From contig JAXHNP010000007.1 of assembly GCA_034520365.1 (NCBI GenBank), positions 558,001-622,000 on the forward strand: 64,000 bases of DNA. The letters run 5' to 3'. Both the position numbers and the translations under genes were made by a program. The notes beneath the pieces are model-generated. The model made no database searches. It had not been told where the DNA came from and saw only the letters and a program-made list of their open reading frames with translations. Each line of letters begins with the position of its first letter. The first letter of the stretch is position 1. Shown here one piece after another: positions 3,476 to 51,806 of this stretch. The DNA comes from Desulfobacterales bacterium. GTDB taxonomy: Bacteria; Desulfobacterota; Desulfobacteria; Desulfobacterales; Desulfosalsimonadaceae.

Positions 3476-6214
3476 ATGCAGATGCTGACCCTGGACTATA
3501 TTCGAAACGCAGTGGCAGATACGGATATTATTTTCAAACGCGGCGAGCGGCTCTTTGAATACGGGGCCTGTGTGGGTGGGTGTCTGGATGCAGAAAACGG
3601 GCGATTCGAATATACGGTGGACGGCAATTACGGCGACTATACCATTGAAATCCAGTTTAACGGCGATCGGCTTGAAACCTATTGTGACTGCCCGTATCCC
3701 GGCGCGGGATGCAAGCACACGGTGGCGGCGCTGCTCGATATAACACAGAATTTTAACTTCAAATCCTCTAAAAAGCCCCCGGAACCGGCATCCGAAGCAG
3801 TGCCGTCCCCCTATCTGAGCCGTGAGGAAATCAGGGCCCAGGCCCTTGAGGACCGCCAAAAACGGGCCAAAACCGAAAATTTTCAGATCACCGTGGGGGA
3901 TATGTATAAGGGCGAGCATCTGGTGGAAACCCCGGCCGGCAAACAGTATACGGTGACCCTCCATGATCCGGAAAACGGCACCGGCCATTGCTCCTGTCCG
4001 GATTTTGAAACCAACCGGCTCCAGATCTGCAAACATTTGATCGCGGTCCACCGGCTGCTTAAAGAGCATAAAGGGTTTAAGGAGAAAGTCGCTAAGGAGA
4101 TATTCCCGTTTGTGGATATTTTCTGGGATGCAGCGGCTGAACGGCCCCGGGTTTTCTGTGAGCATCCGGAAAACGAGCCGGAATCGCTCCGCCGGGTCAT
4201 CAAAGATAATTTCGACCCGGATGGCCCCTTTAAAACCTCGGATTTGGGCGAATTTACCTCCCTTCTGGATCTGCCGGACCAGTTCAAGCGCGTGCGCATT
4301 GCCGGCACCGTATATAAAAAGTTGGAAACCTACTGGGCGGAGCGGCAGCTGGCCGAACTTTCCCGGCAGACGGAACCGGATTTTTCCGTGATCAAAACCC
4401 GGCTGTACCCGTATCAGGAGGAAGGCGTCCGGTTTGCCCTGTACAAAAAGGCCGCGCTCATCGGCGATGAGATGGGGCTTGGCAAAACGCTGCAGGCCAT
4501 CGCCGCTTCCATACTCAAACGGGATATATTTGGGTTCTCCCGGGTGCTGGTGGTCACCCTGGCCTCCCTAAAGGAGCAGTGGAAGCGGGAGATTGACCGG
4601 TTTACTGACGAAAAGGCGGTGATCATCGCGGGCAGCGCGGCCAAGCGCAGGCAAATCTATGATAATGATGATGCCCTCTTCAAAATCACCAACTACGAGG
4701 CCGTGCTGCGGGACGTGGGCCCGATTTCCCGCTTTAAGCCGGATATTGTTATTCTTGACGAGGCGCAGCGGATCAAGAACTTTAACACCAAGACCGCGGA
4801 TGCCGTCAAGCGCCTGCCCCGCAAGCATGCCATGGTGCTTACCGGCACCCCGCTTGAGAACAAGCTGGAGGATGTCTACTCCATCATTCAGTTCCTGGAC
4901 CCGGAACGGCTGTCGCCCCTATGGGCGTTTGCGGCTGAACATTTTATGTTAAGCCGTGAGAAAAAAGGCAAAATCCTGGGCTATCGGAACCTGGACAAGC
5001 TCCATCAGGAGCTTCAACCCATTGTCATCCGCCGGAAAAAGATGGATGTGCTGGAGCAGCTGCCGGAAGAGCTGGTCAATAACTATTATATCGAACTGAC
5101 CGAACAGCAGTACAAGATCCATGGCGGCTATGCCCAGTCACTGCTGCCCCTCATGAACAAGAAATTCCTAACGCCCATGGATCTGCGGCGCATCCAGGAG
5201 CTTTTGCTCAAAATGCGGCAGGTATGCAACTCCACGTACCTGATCGATCGCAAAACCCAGATTTCGCCTAAATTAAAAGAGCTTGAATCGATTCTCTCTG
5301 ATCTGGCTATCCAGGAGGGCCGCAAGATCGTTATTTTCTCCGAATGGACGACCATGACCTACCTGATCGCGCGGCACCTCTCCAATGCGGGGATACCCTT
5401 TGTGGAGCTTTCCGGCAAGATACCGGTCAACCGCCGCCAGGCGCTGATTGATGAATTTACCAACAATCCGGACTGCCGCGTATTTCTGTCCACGGATGCC
5501 GGGGGGACGGGCTTGAATCTGCAGGCCGCTGACTGCGTGATCAACTTCGAACTCCCCTGGAATCCGGCGCGGATGAACCAGCGCATCGGCCGGGTCAGCC
5601 GGATCGGCCAGGAGAGCGGCACGGTCAATGTGATCAACCTGATCGCCAAAAACAGCATTGAAGAAAGAATTTATGCGGGCATTCAGCTGAAAACCGATCT
5701 GTTTCAGGGGGTTTTTGACGGCACCACGGATATGGTGGAGTTTTCCCGGGAAAAGCGCACAGAGATGTTAAACCAGCTTCGGGAAATGATGCAGGAGGCG
5801 CCCGAGCCGGTTTCGCCGGAGCCTTCGGCTGCAGAGGAAATTCCCGAGGATACGCCGCATTATTTAAACCCCGAGGTGTTCAAGGACCAGGCGGAAGGGG
5901 CGTTTGCCTATGATGCGGAGGAGACGGGCGGGGCGGCCAACGAGCAGGCCGGGACAGATGAATCCCCCGGAGAGGCGGCCGCCGCTGCGGAGCGCCCGGA
6001 ATCGGCCGGCGGGGAATCGGCGGCCGCGGTTTTGGCGGATCAGCCCCCGGAGAAAATGGAGGCGGTGCTCAATTCCGGTATGGAGTTTATCGGCGGGCTC
6101 CTTGAAATGGCCACCGGCCAAAAGATAGAAACCAGTGCAGCATCGGACAAAATGGTTAAAATCGACAAGGAAACCGGAGAAGTCACCATGAAATTCAAAC
6201 TGCCCGGATTTTAG
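3476..6214 (+). CDS. SWIM zinc-finger SNF2-family DEAD/DEAH helicase
   Basis: 912 aa. Two SWIM-type zinc motifs occur at the N-terminus: CDCPYPGAGCKHTVAALLD (about 74-92) and CSCPDFETNRLQICKH (about 178-193). The SNF2 motor follows: motif I DEMGLGKTLQAIA, motif II ILDEAQRIKN, and the C-lobe with STDAGGTGLNLQAADCVINF and the arginine-finger motif QRIGRVSRIGQ. The last 130 residues are acidic, Ala/Glu-rich and low complexity. SNF2 enzymes translocate on double-stranded DNA and remodel protein-DNA complexes; bacterial SWIM-SNF2 proteins (HepA/RapA relatives) are usually tied to transcription recycling or repair. AAGGAG lies just before the ATG. The next helicase starts 10 bp after the stop, so the two form an operon. 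The exact substrate is unknown. Confidence 0.92.
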   Translation: MQMLTLDYIRNAVADTDIIFKRGERLFEYGACVGGCLDAENGRFEYTVDGNYGDYTIEIQFNGDRLETYCDCPYPGAGCKHTVAALLDITQNFNFKSSKKPPEPASEAVPSPYLSREEIRAQALEDRQKRAKTENFQITVGDMYKGEHLVETPAGKQYTVTLHDPENGTGHCSCPDFETNRLQICKHLIAVHRLLKEHKGFKEKVAKEIFPFVDIFWDAAAERPRVFCEHPENEPESLRRVIKDNFDPDGPFKTSDLGEFTSLLDLPDQFKRVRIAGTVYKKLETYWAERQLAELSRQTEPDFSVIKTRLYPYQEEGVRFALYKKAALIGDEMGLGKTLQAIAASILKRDIFGFSRVLVVTLASLKEQWKREIDRFTDEKAVIIAGSAAKRRQIYDNDDALFKITNYEAVLRDVGPISRFKPDIVILDEAQRIKNFNTKTADAVKRLPRKHAMVLTGTPLENKLEDVYSIIQFLDPERLSPLWAFAAEHFMLSREKKGKILGYRNLDKLHQELQPIVIRRKKMDVLEQLPEELVNNYYIELTEQQYKIHGGYAQSLLPLMNKKFLTPMDLRRIQELLLKMRQVCNSTYLIDRKTQISPKLKELESILSDLAIQEGRKIVIFSEWTTMTYLIARHLSNAGIPFVELSGKIPVNRRQALIDEFTNNPDCRVFLSTDAGGTGLNLQAADCVINFELPWNPARMNQRIGRVSRIGQESGTVNVINLIAKNSIEERIYAGIQLKTDLFQGVFDGTTDMVEFSREKRTEMLNQLREMMQEAPEPVSPEPSAAEEIPEDTPHYLNPEVFKDQAEGAFAYDAEETGGAANEQAGTDESPGEAAAAAERPESAGGESAAAVLADQPPEKMEAVLNSGMEFIGGLLEMATGQKIETSAASDKMVKIDKETGEVTMKFKLPGF

Positions 6215-10308: not shown

Positions 10309-13290
10309 TCAAACCGTCCGCACCCCGTCCACGGTAAGCGTAGTCACCCCCCAGTTTTCCTCGACTTTGCCTGAGAGTAAAAACGGCCGGCCGTAGTCCA
10401 GGATGTGGCAGAAGCGGTTGTAGGCGGCCGGGAAGAAGGTGGTCTCCACGAGTCCGGTCTCGTCCTCGAAGGTCACAAACTTCATGGGATCGCCCGTTTT
10501 TGTTGCCACGGTCTTTCCGGTGATCAGCCAGCCGGCAAACCGGATGCGGCGGCCGAGGTGTACAGGGATGCTCTCGGCCTTGACGGTGTTTAAGGGGTTT
10601 AGCTGATCCGCAAACAGGGTGATGGGATGGCGGTCGCATAAAAACCCCAGCACGGAGAACTGCCGGCGCAGCCTTTGCCGGGGGTCGTCTTCGGGGAGAT
10701 CCGGCATGGCCGGCGGATCGGGATCGGAGAACAGGGAGGGCTCTATGTTCTGTCGGCTGCGGCGTTTCTGCCAGGCGGAGAACTGCCAGCGGATAGCGGC
10801 CCGGTGTTTTTTGGGGTGAAGCCGGTCTAAGGCGCCGCAGTGGATCAACGCCCGGGCTTCCGTGTCATCCGGCCGGACGCGCTCGAAAAAGTCGATCGGA
10901 TCGGCAAACAGGCGTTTTTTCCGCTCATTGAGGATGCGCGCCCGGGTGGCGGCGGAGAGATCTTTTATGGATAAAAACCCTACCCGTAAGCAATCGTCCC
11001 GTCCGGTCCAGCGGATTCGGCTTTCCATAATATCCGGCGGGAGAATGGAGAGCCCCAGGCGGCGGGCCTCGGACACGTAGGCGAATGCGGAATAGAACCC
11101 GCCCTGGTTGCTGATCACCGCGGCCATGAATTCCGCCGGGTGGTGGGTCTTTAAATACGCGGCCTGGAATGAAACCCGCGCATAGGAAGCGCTGTGGGGC
11201 TTGCAGAAGGAATAGCCGTTAAAGCTCATGATCATCCGCCAGATCTGCTCGATTCGGTCATCATCCAGCCCTTTGGCCCGCGCCCCGGCCGAGAACCGGT
11301 AGAAGTAATCCCGCAGCCGGCGCTCGCGGTCCTTTTTGGCCATCACCTTGCGAAGCCCGTCCGCCTCGGCATGGGAAAATCCGGCCACCCGGACGGCCAC
11401 CCGGGAAACGTCCTCCTGGTAGACCATCAGGCCGAAGGTTTCGGATAGCACGTCCGCCATCAGGGGGTGGATCGGCGTCCACGCGCCGCCGTGCAGGCGG
11501 TGAATGTATTCCTGGATCACCTCGTTGGCCGCCGGCCGGATAATGGAGGAATGAATCACCAGGTGCTCGAAATCGCCCACCCGGCTTTTCTGCTGTAGAA
11601 GCCGCATGGCCGGACTTTCAATGTAGAAGCAGCCCATGGTGCCGCCCCGGGCAAGCGCCTCCTGGGTGGCATAATCGTCTTCCGGTTCCCAGCGGGATTC
11701 ATCCAGTTCGACGCCGTTTTCGCCCATATTGGCAAGCGCATCGCGGATGACGCCCAGGCTGCGGTTTCCCAGAAGATCGATCTTGACCAGCCCGGCGTCT
11801 TCCACCGCATCCTTTTCCCACTGCACAATGGGCACCCCCTTGGGCGCGGTCTGGATGGGCACGTAGGTGTCGATCCGCTTTGGGGTTATCACCACGCCGC
11901 CCGGGTGCACCGAGAGATACCGGGGCAGCCCGATAAGCCGCCGGGCAATGGCGAGAATTTCCGGCCATGGCTCGGGAAAATCGATGCCCCGCATTTGGGG
12001 GAGCGTAGCCATCCGCTCCTGAAGGCTCTGATCCCCGTCGGATTCCCAGAACCATGGCAGGCGCGTGGCAATCTGGTTGATTTCCCGGTCGGTGAGGCCG
12101 AAGACCCGGGCGGTCTCGCGAACTGCCATTCTGGGCTTGAAGCAGACGTGATTGGCCACCAGGGCGGCGCGGCCGCTATACTTGGAAAGGACCCTGGCAA
12201 TGACATCATCGCGTTCGTCCCAGGCAAAATCCACATCAATGTCCGGGGCATCCGTCCGACCCGGGTTCAAAAAGCGTTCAAAGTAGAGGTTGTGCTTGAC
12301 CGGGCAGACATTGGTGATGCCCAGGCAGTAGGCCGCCAGGGAGGCCGCGCCCGAGCCCCGGCCGCAGGTCCGGGGGCTGTGGCTGACAATGTCGGAGACG
12401 ATCAGGAAATACCCGGAAAATCCCATTTTTGAGATAATCCGGAGTTCATGCTCCAGGCGATCCGCCACGGTATCGGATATCTCGCCGTATCGTCTTTTTG
12501 CCCCTTCATAGACGGCTTGGCGCAAATGGGCGGCGGCCTTTTCCGGCGGGCCGAACTCATAGGGCGGCATAATCAGGCCGAAATCCGGGCCGGTAAAGGA
12601 CAGGCGCTCGGCGATCGTCTTTGTATTCTCGATGGCTTCGGGGCAGGGGGCAAACCGCTGCCGGTAAGTTTCAGGCGAGGCCAGAAAGGCATCCGGCGGG
12701 GCGGTATCTTCATTTTTTAAGCGGGAGAGGGCCGTGTTCCTGTCAATGGTCCGCAGCACCCGGTGGATGGTAAAGTCCGCCGGGTGATTGAAGAAACTCC
12801 CGGGCGTGGCAACAACTGGAAGCCCTAAGCGGCGGGCAGTTTCGCGCAGTGGGTGGGCTTTGGGAACGGGTTTTCGCGGCAGGGCGGCCGCGATATCGAT
12901 CCCGGCGTCATGGCCGGTGCGCAGCAGTTCCGGGCTGCTCGTCAGCACGGTCAGCCCGTCGGAGTATTTTATGAGCGCGAATTTGAGATCAAAATCAGCG
13001 CAGGTGTGACGCCGGGTGAGCAGGCGGCAGAGACGGCCGTATCCGCGGTTATTTTTGACCAGGCACACCGCGCGGGCCGAAGTGTTTTTGTCCGTGACCT
13101 CGGCGCCGATGATCGGCCGGATGCCTTCATTTCTGCAGGCAGCCAGAAACGGCCAGAGCCCATAGAGGTTGTCCGTGTCAGTCAGGGCCAGCCGGTTGTA
13201 GCCCAAGTTTTTTGCATGCCGGCAGAGGGATTTAATACCGGATACGCCCCACATGAGCGAATATGCGGATCGGACGGTTAAGGGGATCAT
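10309..13290 (-). CDS. dnaE2: Error-prone DNA polymerase III alpha subunit
   Basis: 993 aa from ATG at 13290 (an in-frame TTG lies at 13299). An N-terminal PHP domain (PLTVRSAYSLMWGVSG, LALTDTDNLYG) is followed by the C-family polymerase core with the catalytic-acid motif DAPDIDVDFAWDERDD, SVHPGGVVIT and LDKIDLLG-type sequence VKIDLLGNRSLG. A C-terminal OB-fold (RRIRFAGWLITG, VTFEDETGLVE) completes the DnaE2/ImuC layout at the usual length of about 1000 aa. DnaE2 is the catalytic polymerase of the SOS-induced translesion mutasome. It lies 148 bp downstream of the imuB-like gene, with no LexA-like box of its own in the gap, so it is probably read from the imuB promoter. Its 3' end abuts the truncated ampG. 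Confidence 0.94.
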   Translation of the reverse strand: MIPLTVRSAYSLMWGVSGIKSLCRHAKNLGYNRLALTDTDNLYGLWPFLAACRNEGIRPIIGAEVTDKNTSARAVCLVKNNRGYGRLCRLLTRRHTCADFDLKFALIKYSDGLTVLTSSPELLRTGHDAGIDIAAALPRKPVPKAHPLRETARRLGLPVVATPGSFFNHPADFTIHRVLRTIDRNTALSRLKNEDTAPPDAFLASPETYRQRFAPCPEAIENTKTIAERLSFTGPDFGLIMPPYEFGPPEKAAAHLRQAVYEGAKRRYGEISDTVADRLEHELRIISKMGFSGYFLIVSDIVSHSPRTCGRGSGAASLAAYCLGITNVCPVKHNLYFERFLNPGRTDAPDIDVDFAWDERDDVIARVLSKYSGRAALVANHVCFKPRMAVRETARVFGLTDREINQIATRLPWFWESDGDQSLQERMATLPQMRGIDFPEPWPEILAIARRLIGLPRYLSVHPGGVVITPKRIDTYVPIQTAPKGVPIVQWEKDAVEDAGLVKIDLLGNRSLGVIRDALANMGENGVELDESRWEPEDDYATQEALARGGTMGCFYIESPAMRLLQQKSRVGDFEHLVIHSSIIRPAANEVIQEYIHRLHGGAWTPIHPLMADVLSETFGLMVYQEDVSRVAVRVAGFSHAEADGLRKVMAKKDRERRLRDYFYRFSAGARAKGLDDDRIEQIWRMIMSFNGYSFCKPHSASYARVSFQAAYLKTHHPAEFMAAVISNQGGFYSAFAYVSEARRLGLSILPPDIMESRIRWTGRDDCLRVGFLSIKDLSAATRARILNERKKRLFADPIDFFERVRPDDTEARALIHCGALDRLHPKKHRAAIRWQFSAWQKRRSRQNIEPSLFSDPDPPAMPDLPEDDPRQRLRRQFSVLGFLCDRHPITLFADQLNPLNTVKAESIPVHLGRRIRFAGWLITGKTVATKTGDPMKFVTFEDETGLVETTFFPAAYNRFCHILDYGRPFLLSGKVEENWGVTTLTVDGVRTV

Positions 13291-13331
13291 GGTTTTCAAT
13301 TGATTGATAGCTTCTTCAAAAGCAATTTTGT

Positions 13332-13389
13332 CCGCCGCATCGGCGGTTTTTTAACGTCTTAATCTTACTCTTAATCTTGCTCTTAATCT
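13332..13389. repeat. Short hairpin with T-run and 12-bp tandem repeats between imuB and dnaE2
   Basis: The CCGCCG/CGGCGG stem (13332-13346) is followed on the plus strand by TTTTTT. Next come two and a half copies of CTTAATCTTRCT (13359-13389), which read as alternating hexamers. The T-run faces away from dnaE2, so it would not stop the imuB transcript. No gene. Confidence 0.5.
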
Positions 13390-13438
13390 CAAATTGCCAA
13401 TTGTGAACCTCCAGCGATAAAATCATTCATCAGCTTTC

Positions 13439-14635
13439 TCAAGAAGCCAACATCCGGCCAATGTTTATAGCCTCCTTTCCAAACCGCTCCCGAATATCAT
13501 CCATCGCCCCGATCACCGCCTCGCGTTTTTCCTTGACCGCCGGGGCTTCGGAAAAAAGATCCATCTGGGCCTGGGGGTGAACCGGTTTCGGACAGGTCAG
13601 GCGCACGTGCCGCAGCCGAACCCGCCGGATCCAGGCTTTGTACAGAAGCGATTGCGCTGTTTCGAACAGGGTGATGTCATTGGCTGATGGCGGCGTAACC
13701 GCCAGCTGCCGGAAGCAGCGCAGGCCGTCGGCATAATCGATGGTGATCACCAGGCTCCGGGCGGCTTTTCGGCGTTTCCTCAGCCGGGCGCCGATGGTTT
13801 CTGCAAGCAGATACACCGCGCGTTCTACTGTGGCGACATCGTTGGTGTCATTGCCGAATTCATGGGATGCTTTGATTTTCGGCGGCTCCCGGCCGGCCGG
13901 CAGCACCGGTGACGGATCGATCCCGCGCACGGATTCGTAGATGAAATCCGCGCGTTTGCCAAAAGGCACTGCCAGCTGATCCTTGGCCAGATCGGCCACT
14001 TGTTTCACGTGAAATAGATTGAATTCCTTTAGGCGGAATAGATCGGCGGATTCAATGCCGGGGATTAAGGAGAGGGGCAGCGGCGAAAGCAATGCCCGCT
14101 CCTCACCTTCCCCGACGATGTATTCCCCAATGGGTTTGACCAGGCGGGTGGCGACCTTGGAGATCAGCTTGTTCGGGGCCACCGACCAGATGGGGGAAAG
14201 CCCCAGCCGGTCCCGGATCCCCCGGTACATGCGCCAGGCCACGTCAACCGAAGGACCGAGCAGCCGGCTGGTGCCGGTCACATCGATAAACAGGTGGCCG
14301 TCGATTTCCCCGGGTTCGATAAGCGGGGAATAAGGGAGCACTTCCCGGAAAAGCTCCCGCATGGCCCGCTCGTACCGGTCGGGGTGTGGCGGCAGTATGC
14401 GGGCGTCCCGGCAGATGCGCCGGGCCCGCTTAAGCGGCATGCCCTTTCGGATGCCGGCCTGGTAAGATTCTTCGCTCATGTCATGGACCACGGCGCGCGC
14501 CGCCCCCTCCGGGGCGATGACTACGGGCCGGTCCTTGAGCCCCCCGTCTACCAGCCGTTCGACGGCCACGGCAAAGTCCGCGACGTTTAGGTGGATGACG
14601 GCGCGCGAGCGGTATGTTGTTGCATGAAAGGCCAT
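13439..14635 (-). CDS. imuB: Y-family DNA polymerase, ImuB-like (catalytic acids not conserved)
   Basis: 398 aa from ATG at 14635; the longer open frame to 14677 would run through the promoter. It has the Y-family fold with finger, palm, helix-hairpin-helix (LIPGIESADLFRLKEFN) and little-finger regions. The first catalytic motif, HVDMDAF in DinB, reads HLNVADF (Asp to Asn), and SxDE reads EIDGH (Glu to Gly), so at least two of the three metal-binding acids are absent, as in ImuB. A beta-clamp-binding pentapeptide QMDLF lies near residue 357. ImuB is thought to be a non-catalytic hub linking DnaE2 to the clamp. No ImuA gene is present. The promoter carries the same direct repeat as lexA, which places it under SOS control by inference. 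Confidence 0.85.
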   Translation of the reverse strand: MAFHATTYRSRAVIHLNVADFAVAVERLVDGGLKDRPVVIAPEGAARAVVHDMSEESYQAGIRKGMPLKRARRICRDARILPPHPDRYERAMRELFREVLPYSPLIEPGEIDGHLFIDVTGTSRLLGPSVDVAWRMYRGIRDRLGLSPIWSVAPNKLISKVATRLVKPIGEYIVGEGEERALLSPLPLSLIPGIESADLFRLKEFNLFHVKQVADLAKDQLAVPFGKRADFIYESVRGIDPSPVLPAGREPPKIKASHEFGNDTNDVATVERAVYLLAETIGARLRKRRKAARSLVITIDYADGLRCFRQLAVTPPSANDITLFETAQSLLYKAWIRRVRLRHVRLTCPKPVHPQAQMDLFSEAPAVKEKREAVIGAMDDIRERFGKEAINIGRMLAS

Positions 14636-14648
14636 AGGTTTTAATAAA

Positions 14649-14683
14649 AGATTACAAAAGAAAAATGTAAAGTTCAATGTAAA
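14649..14683 (-). promoter_or_regulatory. imuB promoter with candidate LexA operator
   Basis: Two TTTACATT half-sites (complement at 14664-14671 and 14676-14683), 12 bp start to start, overlap a -35 TTGAAC (14672-14677); a 17-base spacer leads to TAATCT (14649-14654). The -10 ends 13 bases before the ATG, so the transcript would be almost leaderless, in line with the missing Shine-Dalgarno. Same layout as the lexA promoter. Confidence 0.6.
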
Positions 14684-14922
14684 TTTTTAAATTAAAATTT
14701 AACTTAACAATATAGGTTTTAATTAAAGAAATTTTGTTTGATGGGACATCAGAATTTCTTCCGGAAATAGATGCATCCGAGGTAATTGGGGGGGTGCGGG
14801 ATCGTTTTATTTTTGAAGCGGCATCAGGGTTGTTGAGAGGAAGTAATTGTGTGCAAAAAAATCTGGCGGAATCAAACCGGAAAAATGCCGGGCAAAGAAA
14901 ACTTATGGCCGGATTCGATGTT
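14684..14922. other. AT-rich gap with no recognised gene
   Basis: An open frame of 83 codons (14734-14985, plus, TTG start, no ribosome site) crosses this gap but overlaps the antisense conserved small protein and matches nothing I recognise. Nothing else is seen. Confidence 0.4.
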
Positions 14923-15153
14923 TTAAAGGCCTGTTTGCAGGGCTTTCTGAGCCGCGTGCGGCAATTTAATCATAATAAAATATGAATCCGGATAAAGATA
15001 ATCTTCTCCGGATTCATCGATGACTCTAAGATAGCCCTCTGATTCAGCTGAATCGTTAGCAATGACTTGATAAATCTTTCGTTTTTCCAAGTCTTCGGCA
15101 TCCTTATTCTCGATGCAAAGCGCAAATTTTTTTTCTTGTTGTGCTTTTACCAT
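14923..15153 (-). CDS. Conserved small protein of unknown function
   Basis: 76 aa from ATG at 15153 (an upstream in-frame TTG lies at 15168). The sequence has the pattern of a widespread short protein found in Proteobacteria and Planctomycetes: CIENKDAEDLEKRKIYQVI, then YLRVIDESGEDYLYPDSYF and a hydrophobic end. No signal peptide, membrane segment or cysteine motif; probably a compact cytoplasmic beta-rich fold. No strong ribosome site is visible. It lies alone between the DUF72 gene and imuB, on the same strand, with about 180 bp of non-coding sequence upstream. Function unknown. Confidence 0.7.
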   Translation of the reverse strand: MVKAQQEKKFALCIENKDAEDLEKRKIYQVIANDSAESEGYLRVIDESGEDYLYPDSYFIMIKLPHAAQKALQTGL

Positions 15154-15333
15154 ACGAAATAATTTCAATCTGTTTGATATCGCCTAGAATTTCAAAAGGC
15201 ATAAATAAATATTATATTGATTTAGCGTTCATTGCAAGTGAAGTGGCAAATGAGAGTCTTCGATGATACACCTGTCACCTCTACCGAGTTTATCTCTGGA
15301 TGGGGGTAAAAGCAATTCTGCATGAGTTCAAAA

Positions 15334-16170
15334 TTAAGCTCGTCTGATAGGCTGATATCCAAATTTCTCACCCAGCAGCCGCATCATCACCTGCGCATTA
15401 TTTGCCGCCTGAGCGCGGACATGATTGTTGAAAAAAATCAGGCCGGCGTTTGCCTGGGATGCCATCTTGGCAATCCGGGAATCGATCCATTCCTTTAATT
15501 CGGCTTCGGTGTAATCGTAGTCAAACTGCTTCTGCATGTGGCCGGTGCGCCAGCCCGCGGCATTGCGGCCGTGAAACCGGATATAGAAAAAATCGGGGTG
15601 GGTCACCACATCCAGGGGCGGAAACAGGCCGGGCAGCTTCGGCTCGTCCACCGCCGCCAGGGCGACCCGGCGCCGGGAGAGCTCCTCAAACACCCGGTCC
15701 ACGGCCCAGGACTTGTGCCGGAATTCAACAGCCAGGGGCAGGCCTTCGAGTTTTTCCAGCAGGGCGGCAAGATAATGCCGGTTCTTCGGTGAGCGGTCAA
15801 AAGACGGCGGGAGCTGGATTAAAACCGCGGCCAGCTGGCCGGCCTGCACCAGGGGCGCGATGCCGTCCCGGTAGCGGGCCGCCTGGCCGGGCCAGTCGTC
15901 CGGGTCGACTTCATGGGTCAGGGTGCGCGTGAGTTTGGCGGCAAAGGAAAATTCCTCCCCCACCAGCCGGCGCATCCGCTCGATGGCTTCCGCCTTGGGC
16001 ATCTGGTACCATGTGTAGTTCAACTCGGTGATTGAAAACAGGCCCGCATAGTGCGGAAGCATCTCTCCGGCCCGGGTCCCCGGCGGATAAAAGCCCGCTT
16101 CCGTCCACTCGGTATAGGAGTAGCCGCTGGTGCCGACGCGCAGGCGGCATATATCGGCGGTTTCAGTCAT
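15334..16170 (-). CDS. DUF72 (YecE-like) TIM-barrel protein
   Basis: 278 aa, the normal length for DUF72. Family hallmarks are visible: VGTSGYSYTEW at the N-terminus, ITELNYTWYQMP, FAAKLTRTLTH, AVEFRHKSW in the middle and IRFHGRNAAGW followed by IFFNNHVRAQAANNA near the C-terminus. The structure is a TIM barrel; the reaction is not established. Its ATG overlaps the lexA stop by 4 bp (ATGA), so translation is coupled to LexA and the gene should be expressed with the SOS regulon. DUF72 genes beside repair genes are seen in other bacteria, but a repair role is only suggested by context. Confidence 0.9.
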   Translation of the reverse strand: MTETADICRLRVGTSGYSYTEWTEAGFYPPGTRAGEMLPHYAGLFSITELNYTWYQMPKAEAIERMRRLVGEEFSFAAKLTRTLTHEVDPDDWPGQAARYRDGIAPLVQAGQLAAVLIQLPPSFDRSPKNRHYLAALLEKLEGLPLAVEFRHKSWAVDRVFEELSRRRVALAAVDEPKLPGLFPPLDVVTHPDFFYIRFHGRNAAGWRTGHMQKQFDYDYTEAELKEWIDSRIAKMASQANAGLIFFNNHVRAQAANNAQVMMRLLGEKFGYQPIRRA

Positions 16171-16811
16171 GACGACACCCGCTGCATCACATCCGGCCCG
16201 CGCTGGATGCCGATCACCTTGCCCTGCACCAGGATTTCGTCGAATCTGTATCGTACGCTTTCATAGGCGGGGTTTTCGGGTTTCAGGATGATGTGGTCGG
16301 GGCGGGCATGGAACCGTTTGACCGTGGCGTCTTCGCCGTTGATGAGCGCCACCACGATTTCTCCGTCACTGGCGTATTGCCGCGGCGAGCAGATCGCCAG
16401 ATCGCCGGGCAGGATCCCGGCATTGACCATGGAATCCCCCTTGACGCGAAGGGCGAACAAATTTTCCCCCTTGTAGATATCAGCGTCAATGACAATGCTG
16501 TCCTCCCATTCCTGCTGCGCGTACATGGGAAGCCCGGCCGTAATCCGGCCGATGACCGGCACCTCCCGCCACCGGTGAAGGCCCGCGGGTTGCCCGGCCT
16601 GGTTAATCAGATGGACGGTCCGCCCGTATCGGCCCTCCCGCTTGAGGAAGCCCTTTTCTTCCAGGCGATTCAGCGTCTGGGCCACGGCCGTATGGCTTAC
16701 GGCCAGGTCCTGTGCGGCCTGCCGCAGCGAGGGGGAGTCCCCGGATTCGGCTATCCAGTCCTGAAAATAGTCGAGAAGCTGCTGCTGCTTGGCTGTTAAT
16801 GGGGATGACAT
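16167..16811 (-). CDS. lexA: LexA SOS repressor
   Basis: 214 aa from the ATG at 16811, preceded by GGAGGCG at good spacing; the longer frame to 16874 runs into the promoter. The N-terminal winged helix (LTAKQQQLLDYFQDWI, then a recognition helix around SHTAVAQTLNRLEEKG) is followed by the self-cleavage site Ala-Gly in GRITAGLPM. The S24 peptidase domain has the Ser of KGDSMVNAGI and the general-base Lys in EDATVKRFH. RecA-stimulated autocleavage would release repressed genes. The gene is coupled to a DUF72 gene downstream, and its promoter contains the TTTACATT direct repeat shared with imuB, pointing to autoregulation. Confidence 0.95.
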   Translation of the reverse strand: MSSPLTAKQQQLLDYFQDWIAESGDSPSLRQAAQDLAVSHTAVAQTLNRLEEKGFLKREGRYGRTVHLINQAGQPAGLHRWREVPVIGRITAGLPMYAQQEWEDSIVIDADIYKGENLFALRVKGDSMVNAGILPGDLAICSPRQYASDGEIVVALINGEDATVKRFHARPDHIILKPENPAYESVRYRFDEILVQGKVIGIQRGPDVMQRVSS

Positions 16812-16845
16812 ATAGATCGCCTCCGTATTTTTATCAGTTGAGAAA

Positions 16846-16880
16846 AAAATACAAAGGCATAATGTAAATGTCAATGTAAA
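16846..16880 (-). promoter_or_regulatory. lexA promoter with candidate LexA operator
   Basis: TTTACATT half-sites (complement at 16861-16868 and 16873-16880), 12 bp apart, flank and overlap the -35 TTGACA (16869-16874). A 17-base spacer leads to TATTTT (16846-16851). Aligned with the imuB promoter, both half-sites, the -35 and the -10 fall at identical spacing. Confidence 0.65.
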
Positions 16881-16931: not shown

Positions 16932-17582
16932 TCAGGTCAATATTTTCTCCAGCGCCGCAATGGTTTCAGAAGGATCCGGCCGCACCGTGTAATCGGCATT
17001 AACTGCGGCATACCGGATCAGGTTGTCCGTGTCGATAATATAGCGGGCGGACATGGGCAGCTGCCAGGAGCCGTCGTCATTATATTGGGACACGTCAATT
17101 CCCAGCTGTTTGTAAACCTTCTGCAGGTCCTCGGGCACGGTATAGACCAATCCGTATTTTTGTGCGATTTGGTTGCCGGCATCGATCAAAAGTTCCATTG
17201 AAAGGCCTTTTTCTTCGATAAATGCCTGGGAATGCGCCTGGGACTGCGGGGAAATCATGGCCAGGGTGGCGCCCAGATCCCGGATTTTGGCATGGGCTGC
17301 TTCAAGAGCTTCCAGCTCCAGATTGCAGAACGGTCACCACCGGCCCCGGTAAAAACCGAGCACCAAGGGGCCTTCCGACAGCATCTGGTCAAGGCCTCTG
17401 GGCTGGCCTTTCGCATTATTGAGGGTGAAGTCCGGCGCTTTGTCGCCTTCTTTCTTGGCCTGTTTCACCAGTTCCGAGTTTGCCAAATCCTCGGTCGCCC
17501 GGTGCATGACTGCCACCGCCTCCTTGGGCGCCGCGGATTCCAGTTCATTTCTTTGGGCATCTAATTTTTCCTGCAGGCTCAT
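16932..17582 (-). CDS. Peroxiredoxin-like (AhpC/TSA fold) selenoprotein with UxxC motif
   Basis: Two open frames separated by one in-frame UGA (17334-17336) are one gene: 216 residues with selenocysteine at residue 83. The text around it, GFYRGRW-U-PFCNLELEAL, aligns exactly with the redox motif GxWCPxC of peroxiredoxin-like proteins, with Sec at the first Cys. The sequence continues in the same frame through ATLAMISPQSQAHSQAF to the stop. An upstream helical part (residues 1-45) and the redoxin motif DKAPDFTLNNAKG are typical. A hairpin suited to a bacterial SECIS follows the UGA. AAGGAG precedes the ATG at 17582. The likely role is thiol-dependent peroxide or disulfide reduction in the cytoplasm. 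The Sec machinery (selABCD) is not in the window. Confidence 0.85.
17297..17336 (-). promoter_or_regulatory. UGA codon and candidate SECIS hairpin
   Basis: Downstream of the UGA the RNA can form GAGCU-GGA-AGCUC with an outer CUGC/GCAG pairing. The apical loop lies about 20 nt after the UGA, within the distance known for bacterial SelB-bound SECIS elements. G residues in the small apical loop also fit. Folding was done by eye. Confidence 0.6.
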
Positions 17583-17716
17583 TTGATTCTCCTTTGTTAA
17601 GGGGTTGACAAGGGTTTTGCTTTATAAACAAAGTGTAACCATATCGGATGCTCCCGCAAATCCATAAAAATGCTTGGATTTGTTTTTTTCTTTGTGTATC
17701 TGCCTTTTTGGTGATA

Positions 17717-17727
17717 TGGTATTACCA
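17717..17727 (+). promoter_or_regulatory. Candidate GntR/FadR-type operator
   Basis: The perfect 11-bp palindrome TGGTATTACCA matches the TGGT-N3-ACCA form bound by many FCD-domain GntR regulators. It lies 21 bp before the start of the regulator gene, so it may mediate autoregulation of the operon. Confidence 0.45.
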
Positions 17728-17748
17728 CCAGCCAAAAAAGGAGTGTTC

Positions 17749-18477
17749 ATGTTAGACGGATTAAAGCCAGTCAGAACAGAGCGTTTAAAGGATGTTTGCG
17801 TTGCCCGCTTTGAGGCGCTGATCCTGTCCGGGGCGGTCCGGGTGGGGGAAAAGCTGCCGCCGGAGCGGGATATGGCCCAGCAGCTGGGGGTGAGCCGGCC
17901 GGTGGTGCACGATGCGCTTGTCGATATTTCGGCCAAGGGGCTGATTTCAATGATTCCCCGCCAGGGCGCGGTGGTCAATGACTACCGCCGTGAAGGGTCG
18001 CTTACACTTTTAAATTCGCTGCTTAATTACAACGAGGGGAAACTCGACCCCAAGCTTTTGGACGGGCTCCTGAACATGCGGATGCTGTTTGAGACGGAAA
18101 ACGCCCGGCTTGCCGCGAAAAACCGGACCGATGAGCACCTGGAACAGTTTCGCGAGCTGCGAAAGCGGGAGGCCGGGGCGTCTGCCAATGATGTGGATGC
18201 ACTGGTGGCGCTTGATTTTGAATTTCATCTGCTGCTCGCCATGGCCACGGACAACCTGCTCTACCCCCTGCTGCTCAATTCCTTCAAACCGATCTATACC
18301 AACCTGGCCCGCCAGTTTTTCCGGAACCCGGAGGTGGTGGCGTCCGTGTTTGACTATCACGGGCAATTGGCGACGGCCATCGAGGCCGGTGACGGTGAAC
18401 TGGCCGAAGCCGTGATGCGGGAGATGCTCGCAAACGGCGAGGACCGTCTGCGCCAAATCATCGCCAAACAGACATAG
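17749..18477 (+). CDS. FadR/GntR-family transcriptional regulator (FCD domain)
   Basis: 242 aa from ATG at 17749, which has AAAAAGGAG upstream; a longer in-frame start at 17674 is less likely. The N-terminal winged helix has GEKLPPERDMAQQLGVSRP, the classic GntR helix-turn-helix. The C-terminal helical FCD ligand domain (about 95-235) includes a conserved Arg/Glu run at MRMLFETENARLAA and metal-ligand-type His residues in DFEFHLLLAMA and the later DYHGQL. It is followed after 22 bp by the glycyl-radical enzyme gene, so it probably senses that enzyme's substrate or product, likely a small carboxylate. A TGGTATTACCA palindrome just upstream may be its site. Confidence 0.9.
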   Translation: MLDGLKPVRTERLKDVCVARFEALILSGAVRVGEKLPPERDMAQQLGVSRPVVHDALVDISAKGLISMIPRQGAVVNDYRREGSLTLLNSLLNYNEGKLDPKLLDGLLNMRMLFETENARLAAKNRTDEHLEQFRELRKREAGASANDVDALVALDFEFHLLLAMATDNLLYPLLLNSFKPIYTNLARQFFRNPEVVASVFDYHGQLATAIEAGDGELAEAVMREMLANGEDRLRQIIAKQT

Positions 18478-18499
18478 TTTTTAAACAGGGAGGTGGCCC

Positions 18500-21016
18500 A
18501 TGAAAGCGGCTGCTGCAGTAACCGAGCGTTTTCCGATCAAGGCACCCGAAGGGCTTTCGGATAGGATCGCGAACCTTCGCGATTATTATTTCATGGGCGC
18601 CTGCCGGCAGTGGAACAACGAATACACCGCCTGGAGCACCGGCACGCCATGGGATGTCCAGTTCAACGAGACGACCTATTACATCGTCCCGGAAACCTAC
18701 CTGCTGCTCCAGACGCTAAGAAGCTCCTACCGGCAGGCGGCGCGGCCGGTGGATCTGCCGGCGGAGTTCTGGGACTGGCCGCAGGTCAGGCGCCGCGCCT
18801 GGTTTGTGCGGGAGGTTATGGTCAATTATCTCCCACAGGAAATCCTCCCGGGCGACCTGATTGCGGGCGGCCGCTTTAACATCCAGACCTCGCTCTGCCT
18901 CACGGAAAAGGCGCAGAAGGCATTTGACCGGCTGACCATGGGCAGAAACGGGGGGCGGGCAGCGGTTAAGTGGTTTCACGACCACGGGTACGGAAATTCC
19001 GGCGCCACCTGCGGCCACCTGGTGCCGGATTATCCAAGGGCGCTCTCCATAGGGTGGAAGGGGATTCATGATGATCTCAAGGCCCGATACGATAAGCTCT
19101 CAGAAGCGGAAAAGCGCGGGGAAAAAGGCGCTCAGCTTGCCGCCATGATGACCTCCGCCGCCATGCCGCGCGACCTGGCGGAAAAGTATGCCGATTTGTG
19201 CAAAAAGCTGGCTGAAGACGAGGCAGACCCGGCGCGAAAAAATGAGCTTCGGCAGATGGCCGAGAACCTGCGCCGGGTACCCTGGGCGCCGCCGAAAACC
19301 TTCTGGGAGGCGGTCCAGGCGCTGTGGCTTACCCACATGCTGATCATGAGCGATGAAAACTACCCCGGTCCGGGCGTTTCCTTCGGCCGGATCGACCAGT
19401 ACCTCTATCCCTATTGGCAGTATTCCATTGAAAACGGCATGGACCGCGAATTCGGAAAAGAGATTCTCAAATGCTTCTGGGTTCACTGCAATACGGTCTA
19501 TGACGCCATGATCCGAAACGGAAACGACGGTATCACATCGGGCTTCGGGCAACTCATCACCCTGGCCGGCGTAGGTCCGGACCGCAAAGACATGGCCAAT
19601 GACCTCACTTATGCCATGCTCGAGGTGATCGATGAAATGAGCCCTATTCTTGAGCCCAAGCCGAACGTGCGGCTGCACAAAAACACTCCGGACGCGCTTT
19701 TGGATAAAGCGGCGGACATGATTTCCGCCAGCCAGGGCGCGCCGTTTCTGTTAAATTTTGACGAGCGGTCCATGGCCGGCATGCTGCGCGAGGCGAAAAA
19801 AAGCGGCAATACCCAATTGATCCGAGAGGATAACGTTCATGACTATTCGCCGGTGGGATGCCTGGAGAACACCATGTGCGGAAACGACCGCTCCGGCACC
19901 GTGGACAACAACCTAAACCTGTTAAAGGCGGTTGAACTGGCGCTTGCCGGGGGCCGGGACCTGGTGCCGTTTTTCGACCCCATGACCGGAAAAACCGATA
20001 GGGTCCGGCAGGACGGGCCGAATACCGGGAATTCGGAAACCTTTGCCACCTGGGAACATTTCTGGAAGGCCTATCAGGAGCAGACTGAGTATATCATTCA
20101 AAAGTGTGTTGATCTTTACGAGCGCTCCGAATCACTCCGGGCCAAGTATTTCCCCACCCCTTATCTTTCCTGCTTGGTCCGGGGGTGCGCGGAAAAGGGG
20201 ATGGATATCACGCAGGGCGGGGCGGAGCTCAGTTTTACCACCCTTGAGGCGGTAACTTTTGCCACCACGGTGGATGCGCTTTTGGCCGTTAAGTATCTGG
20301 TGTTTGACGAGAAGAAATGCACCATGGTCGAGCTTGTCCGGGCGTTGAAGGACAACTGGGAGGGGCATGAAAAGCTCCAGGCCATTGCCAGAAACAAGGC
20401 GCCCAAGTACGGCCGGGATGATGATGCGGCGGATAAGATGGCCCGAAAGGTGATGGATTATTGGACCGAGGCGACCTGGCGGCACAAAACCCAGTCCACC
20501 AATCGGCAGTTCCGGCCCGGGATGCTCAGCTGGAACTACTGGGCGGGGGACGGCTTTGTGATGGCCGCCAGCGCGGACGGCCGGAAAAAGGGCCAGTTTC
20601 TGTCCAACGCGATCTGCCCGTCAAACGGCGCGGATATTAACGGCCCGACCGCCAATGCCAACTCCGTGGGAAAAGCCCTGGGCGGAAAAACCGGGCCGGA
20701 TCAGGGAGACTGGGACGGCTATCTGAACAGCCTGCCCAACGGGGCAAGCCATACCATCACCTTTAATCCGTCAATCATAAAAGACCCGGAACATAAGGAG
20801 AAGTTCAAGGCGTTTCTGCGGGGATATGCGGAAAACGGGGGTACATCGCTCCAGGTGAATATGCTGGATCCGGACATGCTGCGCGATGCCCAGGAAAATC
20901 CCCAGAACTACCGGCACCTGCTGGTACGCATCACCGGATACAATGCCTATTTCACGGCTGTTGGGAAAGAACTGCAGAACGAGGTGATTGCGCGGCTGAG
21001 CCATAGCCGGTTTTGA
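18500..21016 (+). CDS. Glycyl-radical enzyme of the pyruvate formate-lyase family, substrate unassigned
   Basis: 838 aa, a full-length GRE. The thiyl-radical loop reads GCLENTMCGND with Cys454 followed two residues later by Glu456, the CxE pattern shared by GRE dehydratases, C-N lyases and hydroxyphenylacetate decarboxylase, and unlike the Cys-Cys of true pyruvate formate-lyase. The glycyl-radical motif near the C-terminus is RITGYNAYF with Gly813. The first residue variation (GCLEN rather than GCVEP) and GYNAYF rather than GYSAxF set it apart from the well-known dehydratases. GGAGG precedes the ATG. It lies between a GntR regulator and its activase, a self-contained catabolic operon. The substrate cannot be named from the sequence. 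It must work anaerobically in the cytoplasm or a compartment; no encapsulation peptide or shell gene is seen. Confidence 0.92.
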   Translation: MKAAAAVTERFPIKAPEGLSDRIANLRDYYFMGACRQWNNEYTAWSTGTPWDVQFNETTYYIVPETYLLLQTLRSSYRQAARPVDLPAEFWDWPQVRRRAWFVREVMVNYLPQEILPGDLIAGGRFNIQTSLCLTEKAQKAFDRLTMGRNGGRAAVKWFHDHGYGNSGATCGHLVPDYPRALSIGWKGIHDDLKARYDKLSEAEKRGEKGAQLAAMMTSAAMPRDLAEKYADLCKKLAEDEADPARKNELRQMAENLRRVPWAPPKTFWEAVQALWLTHMLIMSDENYPGPGVSFGRIDQYLYPYWQYSIENGMDREFGKEILKCFWVHCNTVYDAMIRNGNDGITSGFGQLITLAGVGPDRKDMANDLTYAMLEVIDEMSPILEPKPNVRLHKNTPDALLDKAADMISASQGAPFLLNFDERSMAGMLREAKKSGNTQLIREDNVHDYSPVGCLENTMCGNDRSGTVDNNLNLLKAVELALAGGRDLVPFFDPMTGKTDRVRQDGPNTGNSETFATWEHFWKAYQEQTEYIIQKCVDLYERSESLRAKYFPTPYLSCLVRGCAEKGMDITQGGAELSFTTLEAVTFATTVDALLAVKYLVFDEKKCTMVELVRALKDNWEGHEKLQAIARNKAPKYGRDDDAADKMARKVMDYWTEATWRHKTQSTNRQFRPGMLSWNYWAGDGFVMAASADGRKKGQFLSNAICPSNGADINGPTANANSVGKALGGKTGPDQGDWDGYLNSLPNGASHTITFNPSIIKDPEHKEKFKAFLRGYAENGGTSLQVNMLDPDMLRDAQENPQNYRHLLVRITGYNAYFTAVGKELQNEVIARLSHSRF

Positions 21017-21020
21017 TAAA

Positions 21021-21066
21021 TCGTACTCGTACTCGGGTTTAACTTCGATTACGAGAACGAGTACGA
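21021..21066. repeat. Short palindromic hexamer repeat between the GRE and activase genes
   Basis: TCGTACTCGTACTCG is followed by a short loop and ATTACGAGAACGAGTACGA, a small version of the 23.4, 35.9 and 60.8 kb repeats. It fills nearly all of the 56-bp gap and would form an RNA hairpin in the operon transcript. Confidence 0.75.
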
Positions 21067-21072
21067 GCAGCA

Positions 21073-22059
21073 ATGAAGAAATCCATCATGACCCAGGAAA
21101 CCAAATACGCCACGGTCCTTGAAATTGTCCGCATGTCCACCGAAGACGGGCCGGGTATCCGCACGACCGTGTTTTTCAAGGGGTGCTCGCTCAGATGCGC
21201 CTGGTGCCACAACCCGGAGAGCATATCGGCAAAGCCCCAGCTGTGCTGGTTTGCTAACCGGTGCATCGGGTGCCGCACCTGCGAGGACATCTGCCCCAAT
21301 GAGGCCCTGACGATTGACGATACCGGCGTGCACATCGACCGGGACTGTTGCCGTGCCTGCGGGACCTGCGCGGCGGAATGCCCGGGAACCGCCCTGGAGC
21401 TTCTGGGCACCCGGTGGGAGCTTGGCGGCCTTGTGACCGAGGTGCTCAAAGACCGGGCCTATTTTGAAACCTCGGGCGGCGGCATCACCGCATCCGGCGG
21501 AGACCCGGCCATGCAGCCCGAATTTGTGGGCGAGTTTTTCAAAGTTCTCAGGGGCCGCGGCATCCACACCGCCCTGGATACCTGCGGCTACTGCTCAAAA
21601 ACCGCCCTTGACCGGATACTGCCGTATGCGGCCATGGTGCTGTTTGACATCAAGGTGATGGATCCCGAGAGGCATCGGCAGTATACCGGGCATGACAACC
21701 AGAAGATTTTGGAAAACCTTTTGTATATCGCCGATTTTATCCGCTCCCATGTTCACCCGAGCGCGCTATGGATCCGCACCCCGCTGATTCCGGGGGCAAC
21801 CGCGGATCACGACAACATCGACCGGATTGCCCGGTTTATTTCCACGGAAATCTCCGACGTGGTCAACCGGTGGGAGCTTTGCGCCTTCAACAACCTGTGC
21901 CGGGATAAGTACCTGAGGCTCGGGCAGAAATGGGCGTTTGAGGCGGCTGAACTGCTCACTAACGCGGAACTGGACGGTTATGTCCGCACGGCTGTGGCAG
22001 CCGGGATATCCAAAGAAAAGGTATGTTGGACGGGTTCATCAAAGCTGATGGCTTCGTAA
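21073..22059 (+). CDS. Glycyl-radical enzyme activase (radical SAM)
   Basis: 328 aa from ATG at 21073 (an alternative ATG at 21088; neither has a strong ribosome site). The radical-SAM cluster motif CSLRCAWC is followed by NPE. A ferredoxin-like insert with two 4Fe-4S motifs, CIGCRTCEDICP and CCRACGTCAAECP, separates it from the SAM-binding GGG-type sequence SGGGITASGGDP. This is the layout of GRE activases for non-PFL enzymes (HpdA, CutD, BssD type), which abstract hydrogen from the glycine of the partner. The partner is the GRE encoded immediately upstream. The 56-bp gap holds a palindromic hexamer repeat. Confidence 0.94.
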   Translation: MKKSIMTQETKYATVLEIVRMSTEDGPGIRTTVFFKGCSLRCAWCHNPESISAKPQLCWFANRCIGCRTCEDICPNEALTIDDTGVHIDRDCCRACGTCAAECPGTALELLGTRWELGGLVTEVLKDRAYFETSGGGITASGGDPAMQPEFVGEFFKVLRGRGIHTALDTCGYCSKTALDRILPYAAMVLFDIKVMDPERHRQYTGHDNQKILENLLYIADFIRSHVHPSALWIRTPLIPGATADHDNIDRIARFISTEISDVVNRWELCAFNNLCRDKYLRLGQKWAFEAAELLTNAELDGYVRTAVAAGISKEKVCWTGSSKLMAS

Positions 22060-50291: not shown

Positions 50292-51806
50292 ATGCACGCG
50301 CCCCGGGTCAAAACCCTGTTAGCCCATAAAGCCTCCCTTGAGAGCATTTTTGATGCGCTTCCCGCACTGATCTACTGCAAGGATACCCAGGGCCGCATTG
50401 TTTGCGTCAACGAAACATTTGTGGCGCAATTTAATATGAAAAAAGCCGATTTTGAGGGAAAACGGGTTAAAGACCTGTTTCCCCGGACAGCCGGTCATTT
50501 GATGCGTAATGATGCGGATATTATTGAGACCGGAACCCCCCAAAAACGGATGTTTCTCTCCTATGAAACCCCTGCCGGCGAGCGCTGGGCGCATACGTAT
50601 AAATTCCCCTTCCGTGATACGGACGGGACGATCATCGCCATTATCGGGTATGCCACCGATATTACCGAGATCAAGCAGATGCAGGATGAGCTGAGGCAAA
50701 GTGAGCAAAAGTACCGCAATTTTTTTGAAACCGCCCTGGACTGTATCTATATTACCGCGCTGGACGGCACCATTTTAGAGTCCAATGATGCGGCCCTGGA
50801 CATGTTTGGCTATGCCTCCAAAGAGGAATTCATGCAGGTGCCGGTCCAGAATCTGTATAAAAATCAGGAGGACCGGAAACGGCTTCAGGAAAAGGTTGCG
50901 CGGGAGGGGATGGCGGATCGCTTTCCGGTTGATCTGCTGCGAAAGGATGGCTCGGTGGTCCACGCGTTGATCACCGCCCTGCCGGTAAAGGATGCCGGCG
51001 GCCGCATTTGCGGATACCAGGGAACCATCCATGATGTGACCGAGCTTAAGGAGGCGGAGGAGCAGAAGAACCTATTGGAGGCCGAACTCCGGCAGGCCCA
51101 GAAGATGGAAGCGGTGGCCAAACTCTCCGGCGGCATTGCCCATGATTTTAACAACCTGCTCTTTACCATCATGGGAAGCATCGAGCTGGCCCAGAGTTTT
51201 ACGGATACAGGCCAGGCAAAACAGCTCGATCGGGCCTACCGGGCCTGCCTGGAAGCCAAGCAGCTGATCCGGCGGTTCCTTGAGCTCTCCGAAAGACCGC
51301 CTGCTGCAAAATCCAAGGGTTCCATTGCCGAGATGATACAGCACGCCCTGAGCAGCCGGATCGATACCTCGGACCGGATTCATTATAAACTCCAGATCGC
51401 CGGCGGCCTCTACCGGGCGGCCTTTGTCTATGATCAGATGCTGCAGGTGATGGAAAACCTCTTGTCCAATGCGGAAAACGCCCTGGTCGATGGCGGCACC
51501 ATCACGGTTACCGCCAAAAACATCGAACTGGAGCACGGTCTTCCGGATAAGGGCAAACCCCTGGCACCGGGCAAGTATGTAAAGATCAATGTGTCAGACA
51601 CCGGGGTGGGGATCCCGGCGGAGCAGATCGATAAAATCTTTGACCCCTATTTTTCCACTCAAAAAACCCCCGCCAACAAAGGCCAGGGTTTGGGCCTTAC
51701 CACCGTATACGCCACAATAAAGCGGCATAAAGGCGGCATTACAGTGGACTCCACACCCGGAGAAGGCACCACCGTGACCCTTTATCTGCCGGCAGCAGAG
51801 GTTTGA
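50292..51806 (+). CDS. PAS-domain sensor histidine kinase
   Basis: 504 aa. Two PAS domains, first about 15-125 (IFDALPALIYCKDTQGRI) and second about 138-250 (ALDCIYITALDGTILESND) with PAC-type GYQGTIHDVTELKEAEEQ, then the dimerisation box LSGGIAHDFNNLLFTIMG (His-phosphorylation) and the ATPase boxes MENLLSNAENAL, SDTGVGIPAEQIDKIFDPYF and GQGLGLTTVYATIKRHKGG. No membrane segment, so it senses a cytoplasmic signal. No receiver domain or adjacent response regulator, so the partner is elsewhere (orphan kinase). Monocistronic. Confidence 0.93.
   Translation: MHAPRVKTLLAHKASLESIFDALPALIYCKDTQGRIVCVNETFVAQFNMKKADFEGKRVKDLFPRTAGHLMRNDADIIETGTPQKRMFLSYETPAGERWAHTYKFPFRDTDGTIIAIIGYATDITEIKQMQDELRQSEQKYRNFFETALDCIYITALDGTILESNDAALDMFGYASKEEFMQVPVQNLYKNQEDRKRLQEKVAREGMADRFPVDLLRKDGSVVHALITALPVKDAGGRICGYQGTIHDVTELKEAEEQKNLLEAELRQAQKMEAVAKLSGGIAHDFNNLLFTIMGSIELAQSFTDTGQAKQLDRAYRACLEAKQLIRRFLELSERPPAAKSKGSIAEMIQHALSSRIDTSDRIHYKLQIAGGLYRAAFVYDQMLQVMENLLSNAENALVDGGTITVTAKNIELEHGLPDKGKPLAPGKYVKINVSDTGVGIPAEQIDKIFDPYFSTQKTPANKGQGLGLTTVYATIKRHKGGITVDSTPGEGTTVTLYLPAAEV

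Follow-up and report, generated by a model that had tools for sequence, protein, structure and literature searches.

A predicted peroxiredoxin-like UxxC selenoprotein with an internal UGA codon and a coding-region SECIS-like hairpin in a Desulfobacterales genome

Introduction

Gene calling with translation table 11 yields two open reading frames at the locus described here, one of 82 residues (17334..17582) and one of 108 residues (16932..17258), and raises the question of whether they are the remains of a broken gene or the two parts of a single protein that is read through a TGA codon. The locus lies in a stretch of 64,000 nucleotides, referred to as the window, from a Desulfobacterales bacterium. 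A first-pass annotation, made from the letters of the window, had proposed a peroxiredoxin-like selenoprotein and had foreseen exactly this split by automatic annotation. The evidence set out below indicates that the two apparent fragments are most likely one redox enzyme with selenocysteine (Sec) at its active site.

Results

Reading frame and domain match

Read through codon 83, the single internal TGA, the minus-strand frame encodes a protein of 216 residues of the AhpC/TSA family (Table 1). The surrounding motif is GFYRGRW-U-PFC; the first-pass annotation had placed gene, strand, TGA and motif position correctly, and the motif itself reads GRW-U-PFC. The read-through protein matches PF00578 (AhpC-TSA) over residues 46-191 with 91.9 bits against a curated cut-off of 26. 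Both fragments also match PF00578 when taken separately, as had been claimed for the two sides of the TGA, but the N-terminal one does so below the cut-off (21.1 versus 26 bits). The best NCBIfam match, over residues 48-209, is the SelL-related redox protein NF040769, which at 46.3 bits does not reach its cut-off of 120.

Table 1. Features of the locus, in window coordinates.
Feature	Position	Strand	Basis
Predicted selenoprotein gene, AhpC/TSA (Prx-like), 216 aa with Sec83	16932..17582	-	frame, PF00578 match, TGA conserved in class
Start codon ATG	17582..17580	-	sequence
Putative ribosome-binding site AAGGAG, upstream of ATG	17589..17594	-	sequence alone
UGA codon, predicted selenocysteine residue 83, first position of UxxC	17334..17336	-	frame, alignment of relatives
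TGC codon, Cys86, partner Cys of UxxC	17325..17327	-	Cys in 153/153 alignment rows
Bacterial SECIS-like hairpin inside the coding sequence	17297..17328	-	fold, comparison with relatives
Hairpin conserved core GAGC-UGGAA-GCUC	17318..17306	-	relatives
Hairpin apical loop GGA	17313..17311	-	fold
Terminal stop TGA	16934..16932	-	sequence

Selenocysteine machinery of the source genome

The source assembly (4.33 Mb, given as 99.39% complete) was searched for selA, selB, selC and selD, whose absence would speak against a selenoprotein, and all four are present. SelA scored 537.5 bits (E 1.8e-161), SelB 361.2 bits (one of 13 matches above the cut-off), and SelD, which itself carries one internal TGA, 381.7 bits. 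The tRNA-Sec gene scored 78.2 bits (one of 11 matches above the cut-off), and ARAGORN assigned it the anticodon TCA. Rfam at the gathering score and ARAGORN gave no match in the window; this is no argument against a selenoprotein because the tRNA-Sec gene sits on another contig.

Conservation of the TGA among relatives

In a family sample of 36 genomes, the source genome included, 24 contained a match to the protein at E 0.001, which in 14 genomes was full-length with one internal TGA; of the three further genomes of the genus, two (G021 and G022, 94% and 92% complete) gave no match. In a class sample of 389 genomes, 221 matched at the same threshold. The 74 class genes analyzed comprise 73 full-length matches listed down to E 1.6e-46 and one gene found in the family search only; class matches past that value, being partial, split or weak, were left out. 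Six genes from other genomes of the family (L117, L118, L119, L121, L122 and L127), which form a separate Prx-like subfamily whose TGA lies in F(Y/F)RGHW-U-PFC with I(S/R)QLAE after it, were likewise kept out of the Sec counts. As a contrast set we used 79 Cys genes drawn from the best 80 of 94 relatives, after two loci outside the motif pattern (L071, L085) had been dropped and one (L024) had contributed two genes; the query had Cys at this position and one of the six patterns used spans it, so that this set is not a census. Its hosts are Cyanobacteria, Paenibacillus and other bacilli, Gammaproteobacteria, Actinobacteria, Bacteroidetes and others.

When the homologues were aligned, as the first-pass annotation had suggested, the Cys homologues lined up at the Sec site. 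Among the matches listed, the 74 class genes have TGA in 68 cases, Cys in five (from four genomes) and TAA in one, which together with the 79 Cys genes from elsewhere documents Sec/Cys exchange at this position. The partner position of UxxC holds Cys in every one of the 74 class genes and of the 79 Cys homologues. Identity of the class genes to the query is about 38-67%; over 67 Sec genes, mean identity to the window protein is 48.6% before the site and 50.4% after it, and third codon positions carry more substitutions than first or second positions on both sides in all five genes compared.

These data bear on the reading in which the TGA would be an artefact of sequencing or a recent nonsense mutation, in a gene for an ordinary Cys enzyme or in a pseudogene. 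The Cys homologues inside and outside the class, and the one relative with TAA at the Sec codon (L153), are what such a reading would draw upon. Against it stand the recurrence of TGA in many genera and the presence of the Sec machinery in the genome. Since the TGA is conserved in the class, both sides of it are similarly conserved and substitutions concentrate at third positions, sequencing error, which the first-pass annotation had itself named as one possible refutation, and decay are excluded for practical purposes.

Two relatives deserve separate mention. L153 (G250:C378, gene 3984-4625 on the minus strand) has a hairpin that fails the bacterial SECIS criteria, and its genome contains a tRNA-Sec with anticodon TCA and a SelD with TGA; its TAA seems more likely to reflect gene decay or a fault of the assembly than Sec at UAA. 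In the in-class genome G122, L150 consists of two tandem Cys-type paralogues of the enzyme (codons at 6568 and 7857), and this genome also has tRNA-Sec and selD.

The hairpin downstream of the UGA

The hairpin with its loop about 20 nt downstream of the UGA that had been noted at the outset is present, with a spacing of exactly 20 nt. It consists of a 6-bp upper stem (GGAGCU/AGCUCU) closed by the loop GGA and an outer stem, and folds with -12.6 kcal/mol. The constraints published for bacterial SECIS (bSECIS) elements, as given in the Fig 2 legend of PMC13188914, are a loop of 3-9 nt, an upper stem of 4-16 bp, a G within the first two loop positions, a spacing of 16-37 nt and a minimum free energy of at most -7.5 kcal/mol. 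The window hairpin satisfies these constraints in loop, stem, spacing and energy, in line with the SECIS role that the first-pass annotation had proposed for it.

Two lines of evidence were considered as proof of a SECIS and rejected. The hairpin's own stability does not exceed that of dinucleotide shuffles of its 57 nt (z 0.22), 107 of 200 shuffles being equally stable. Nor does column-wise covariation exceed the shuffled level (score 0.079, shuffled mean 0.088), because the core stem barely varies. It is the comparison with relatives, and not the stability of the hairpin itself, that marks it as more than a chance structure.

Among the matches listed, the published constraints are passed by 58 of the 68 Sec genes, 8 of the 79 Cys genes and none of the five in-class Cys genes, against pass rates of 18%, 14% and 2%, respectively, for synonymous shuffles; the remaining 10 of the 68 listed Sec genes fail the hairpin criteria used. 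Codon-level statistics were computed on 32 Sec genes, before the remaining 36 of the 68 were added, and one further analysis used 30 of the 32 segments, with two exact duplicates left out. In these 32 genes, codon U+6 is GAG in 32, U+7 is CTG in 32 and U+9 is GCT in 30, whereas elsewhere in the same genes GAG, CTG and GCT account for 33%, 42% and 11% of the codons for their amino acids. The two exceptions at U+9 (L133 and L134, with GCG) form an 8-bp stem in which the 3' arm is shifted two bases further on. The 4-bp core stem is perfect in 29 of the 32 Sec genes and in none of the 79 Cys genes. Relative to synonymous shuffles, the mean folding z score is -1.93 for the 32 Sec genes versus +0.18 for the 79 Cys genes (Mann-Whitney p 7e-13), related genes being taken as independent in these Sec-versus-Cys statistics. 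The case for a predicted SECIS stands on this synonymous constraint and on the Sec-versus-Cys contrast, both of which support it. Constraint on the synonymous codons of the hairpin is a further point against an error or a nonsense mutation at the TGA, and we consider the probability of such an origin negligible.

Readthrough of the UGA by a route other than Sec, whether by a near-cognate Trp or Cys tRNA or by general reassignment of UGA, has to be weighed with the same data. The selenoprotein is known here from sequence, and a frame that is open under a given code is not evidence that the code is used, which leaves some room for this alternative. It is nevertheless very improbable: UGA doubles as the terminal stop of the same gene, the genome encodes tRNA-Sec(UCA) and SelB, the site is occupied in the homologues by Cys, the residue with which Sec usually exchanges, and the hairpin lies within the bSECIS constraints. 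The locus would then almost certainly encode one thioredoxin-fold, Prx-like selenoenzyme, with Sec83 inserted at the UGA by means of SelB and the hairpin.

Fold and active site

An AlphaFold2 model, calculated with the site as Cys, has a pLDDT of 96.9 and places the Sec position directly before helix 84-95, so that UPFC forms a UxxC motif in a thioredoxin-like position just ahead of this predicted helix. A Foldseek search against the PDB returned Bcp/PrxQ peroxiredoxins on top and ResA thiol-disulfide oxidoreductases within the first ten. The peroxiredoxin motif is PxxxT/SxxC, in which the peroxidatic Cys or Sec comes last. This canonical motif was not found in the window protein, where Arg79 occupies the position of Pro and Sec83 that of Thr/Ser.

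The enzyme might still act as a true peroxidase, with Cys86 as the peroxidatic residue and Sec83 confined to resolution or modulation. The first rank of Bcp/PrxQ in Foldseek points in this direction, as do the phmmer alignments to 2cx3 and 5epf, which put Cys86 on the peroxidatic Cys and Sec83 on Ser/Thr. On the other side, Sec is a stronger nucleophile than Cys, and Arg79, which replaces the Pro of PxxxTxxC, is invariant in the 48 proteins aligned (26 of 32 Sec genes and 22 of 80 Cys loci). In the thioredoxin-family protein 3kcm, Cys is aligned to both Sec83 and Cys86. We regard a true peroxidase of this kind as unlikely. Because Sec falls on the Thr/Ser of true peroxiredoxins instead of on their peroxidatic Cys, we prefer the term Prx-like thiol:disulfide oxidoreductase; the earlier description as a peroxiredoxin-like selenoprotein holds for the Sec in the redox motif, and 'peroxiredoxin' is the less fitting part of it.

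For a Prx-like thiol:disulfide oxidoreductase we infer a thioredoxin-like cycle, with the first-attacking residue, the substrate class and the reductant assigned as follows. SelB with GTP and Sec-tRNA(UCA) would bind the hairpin just 3' of the UGA, and selenium would enter the chain as Sec at residue 83 instead of termination. Sec83, at the N-terminus of the active-site helix, would serve as the nucleophile and attack a disulfide or a peroxide, Cys86 would resolve the intermediate as an Se-S bond, and a thioredoxin-type reductant would recycle that bond.

Genomic context

Gene context was compared in regions of 20 relatives (15 Sec, 4 Cys and 1 TAA; 3.2 to 17.5 kb each). Of the ORFs lying at 10 to 26 kb in the window, only the gene itself, its antisense shadow ORF and imuB matched an ORF in these regions, the last of these once, near one end of L160. 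A 504-residue ORF at window position 50292, 33 kb from the gene, was matched in 4 of the 20 regions. Once the gene and its shadow ORF were set aside, no family of ORFs was common to more than five of the 20 regions, and no recurrent neighbour among them hints at a substrate.

The stretch 10309..16874 encodes, all on one strand, a LexA-like repressor, a DUF72 protein, a small unassigned ORF (14923..15168), an ImuB/DinB-like polymerase and a DnaE-type polymerase, a set that resembles an SOS mutagenesis cassette. Divergent from the gene, 17674..22059 encodes a FadR/GntR-type regulator, a glycyl radical enzyme and, resembling the activase of that enzyme, a radical-SAM protein. We considered whether the gene is functionally tied in a conserved way to its lexA/imuB/dnaE-type neighbours and rejected this, since of these neighbours only imuB recurs in the 20 regions, and only once.

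Two hairpin architectures in the class

The Sec genes among the matches listed fall into two groups. In the main group of 61 genes, the stem is GAGC/GCUC and the loop lies 17-20 nt from the UGA, with 51 of the 61 passing the bSECIS criteria. In the second group of seven genes (L213, L216, L220, L221, L223, L225 and L226, of which L225 and L226 are identical in protein sequence), the stem is GAGCUG/CAGYUY and the loop lies 21-23 nt from the UGA, and all seven pass.

A quick tree search on 153 rows (68 Sec, 5 in-class Cys, 1 TAA and 79 Cys genes) grouped 61 Sec genes with the TAA gene at an SH-aLRT of 100 and placed the other seven Sec genes among Cys homologues. A more careful tree, with the Sec/Cys residue masked, was built from 58 rows, namely 30 of the 68 Sec genes, all five in-class Cys genes and 23 of the 79 Cys genes from elsewhere. 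Here the 24 rows of the main Sec group form a single clade with support of 100/100, the Sec label needs three changes, and 0% of 200 bootstrap trees unite all Sec rows. An AU test of a single Sec clade on the 58 rows, carried out with the 153-row tree known beforehand, gave p 0.0892 and did not reject it. That Sec was acquired, or reacquired, at this codon on more than one occasion within the class, with a different in-gene SECIS each time, is a tentative proposal to which we assign a little less than an even chance; one origin of Sec with losses and a remodelled SECIS is the alternative.

Discussion

Prx-like UxxC selenoproteins have been described before. PMC1088965 reports 22 such sequences from the Sargasso Sea, and Table 3 of PMC1794560 includes Deltaproteobacteria such as Syntrophus, Desulfotalea and Geobacter. 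Prx-like UxxC proteins are given under PF00578 as a predicted selenoprotein family in two reviews (PMC9312934, PMC13188914), and Table 1 of PMC13188914 lists a Prx-like thiol:disulfide oxidoreductase with UxxC/UxxU, PF00578 and WP_010940744.1 as the example. With these selenoproteins, reported in anaerobic Deltaproteobacteria, the window gene shares PF00578, a UxxC motif with Sec first, Cys homologues and a bSECIS. Placement of the window gene as a further member of this published family is well supported by these described features.

Three other groups are similar and differ in defined respects. The Sec-peroxiredoxins belong, like the window protein, to the AhpC/TSA family, but in the descriptions of PMC1088965 and PMC13188914 their Sec comes last (TxxU), whereas it comes first (UxxC) in the window protein. 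The SelL-related redox protein family is the best NCBIfam match of the window protein, yet the score stays well under the family cut-off. We take cd02970 to cover FYRGxWCPxC proteins. The cd02970 Prx-like/AhpC-TSA selenoprotein in PMC13188914 likewise is Prx-like with Sec first in its motif, but the motif printed there is UxxS, in contrast to UxxC in the window protein.

The protein itself should therefore not surprise a selenoprotein specialist. Reading through the UGA turns two seemingly broken ORFs into one complete redox selenoenzyme, and the SECIS predicted here has a measurable constraint at the codon level. The family is well suited to studying the frequency of Cys/Sec exchange and the way in which a SECIS can evolve inside a gene while the protein hardly changes.
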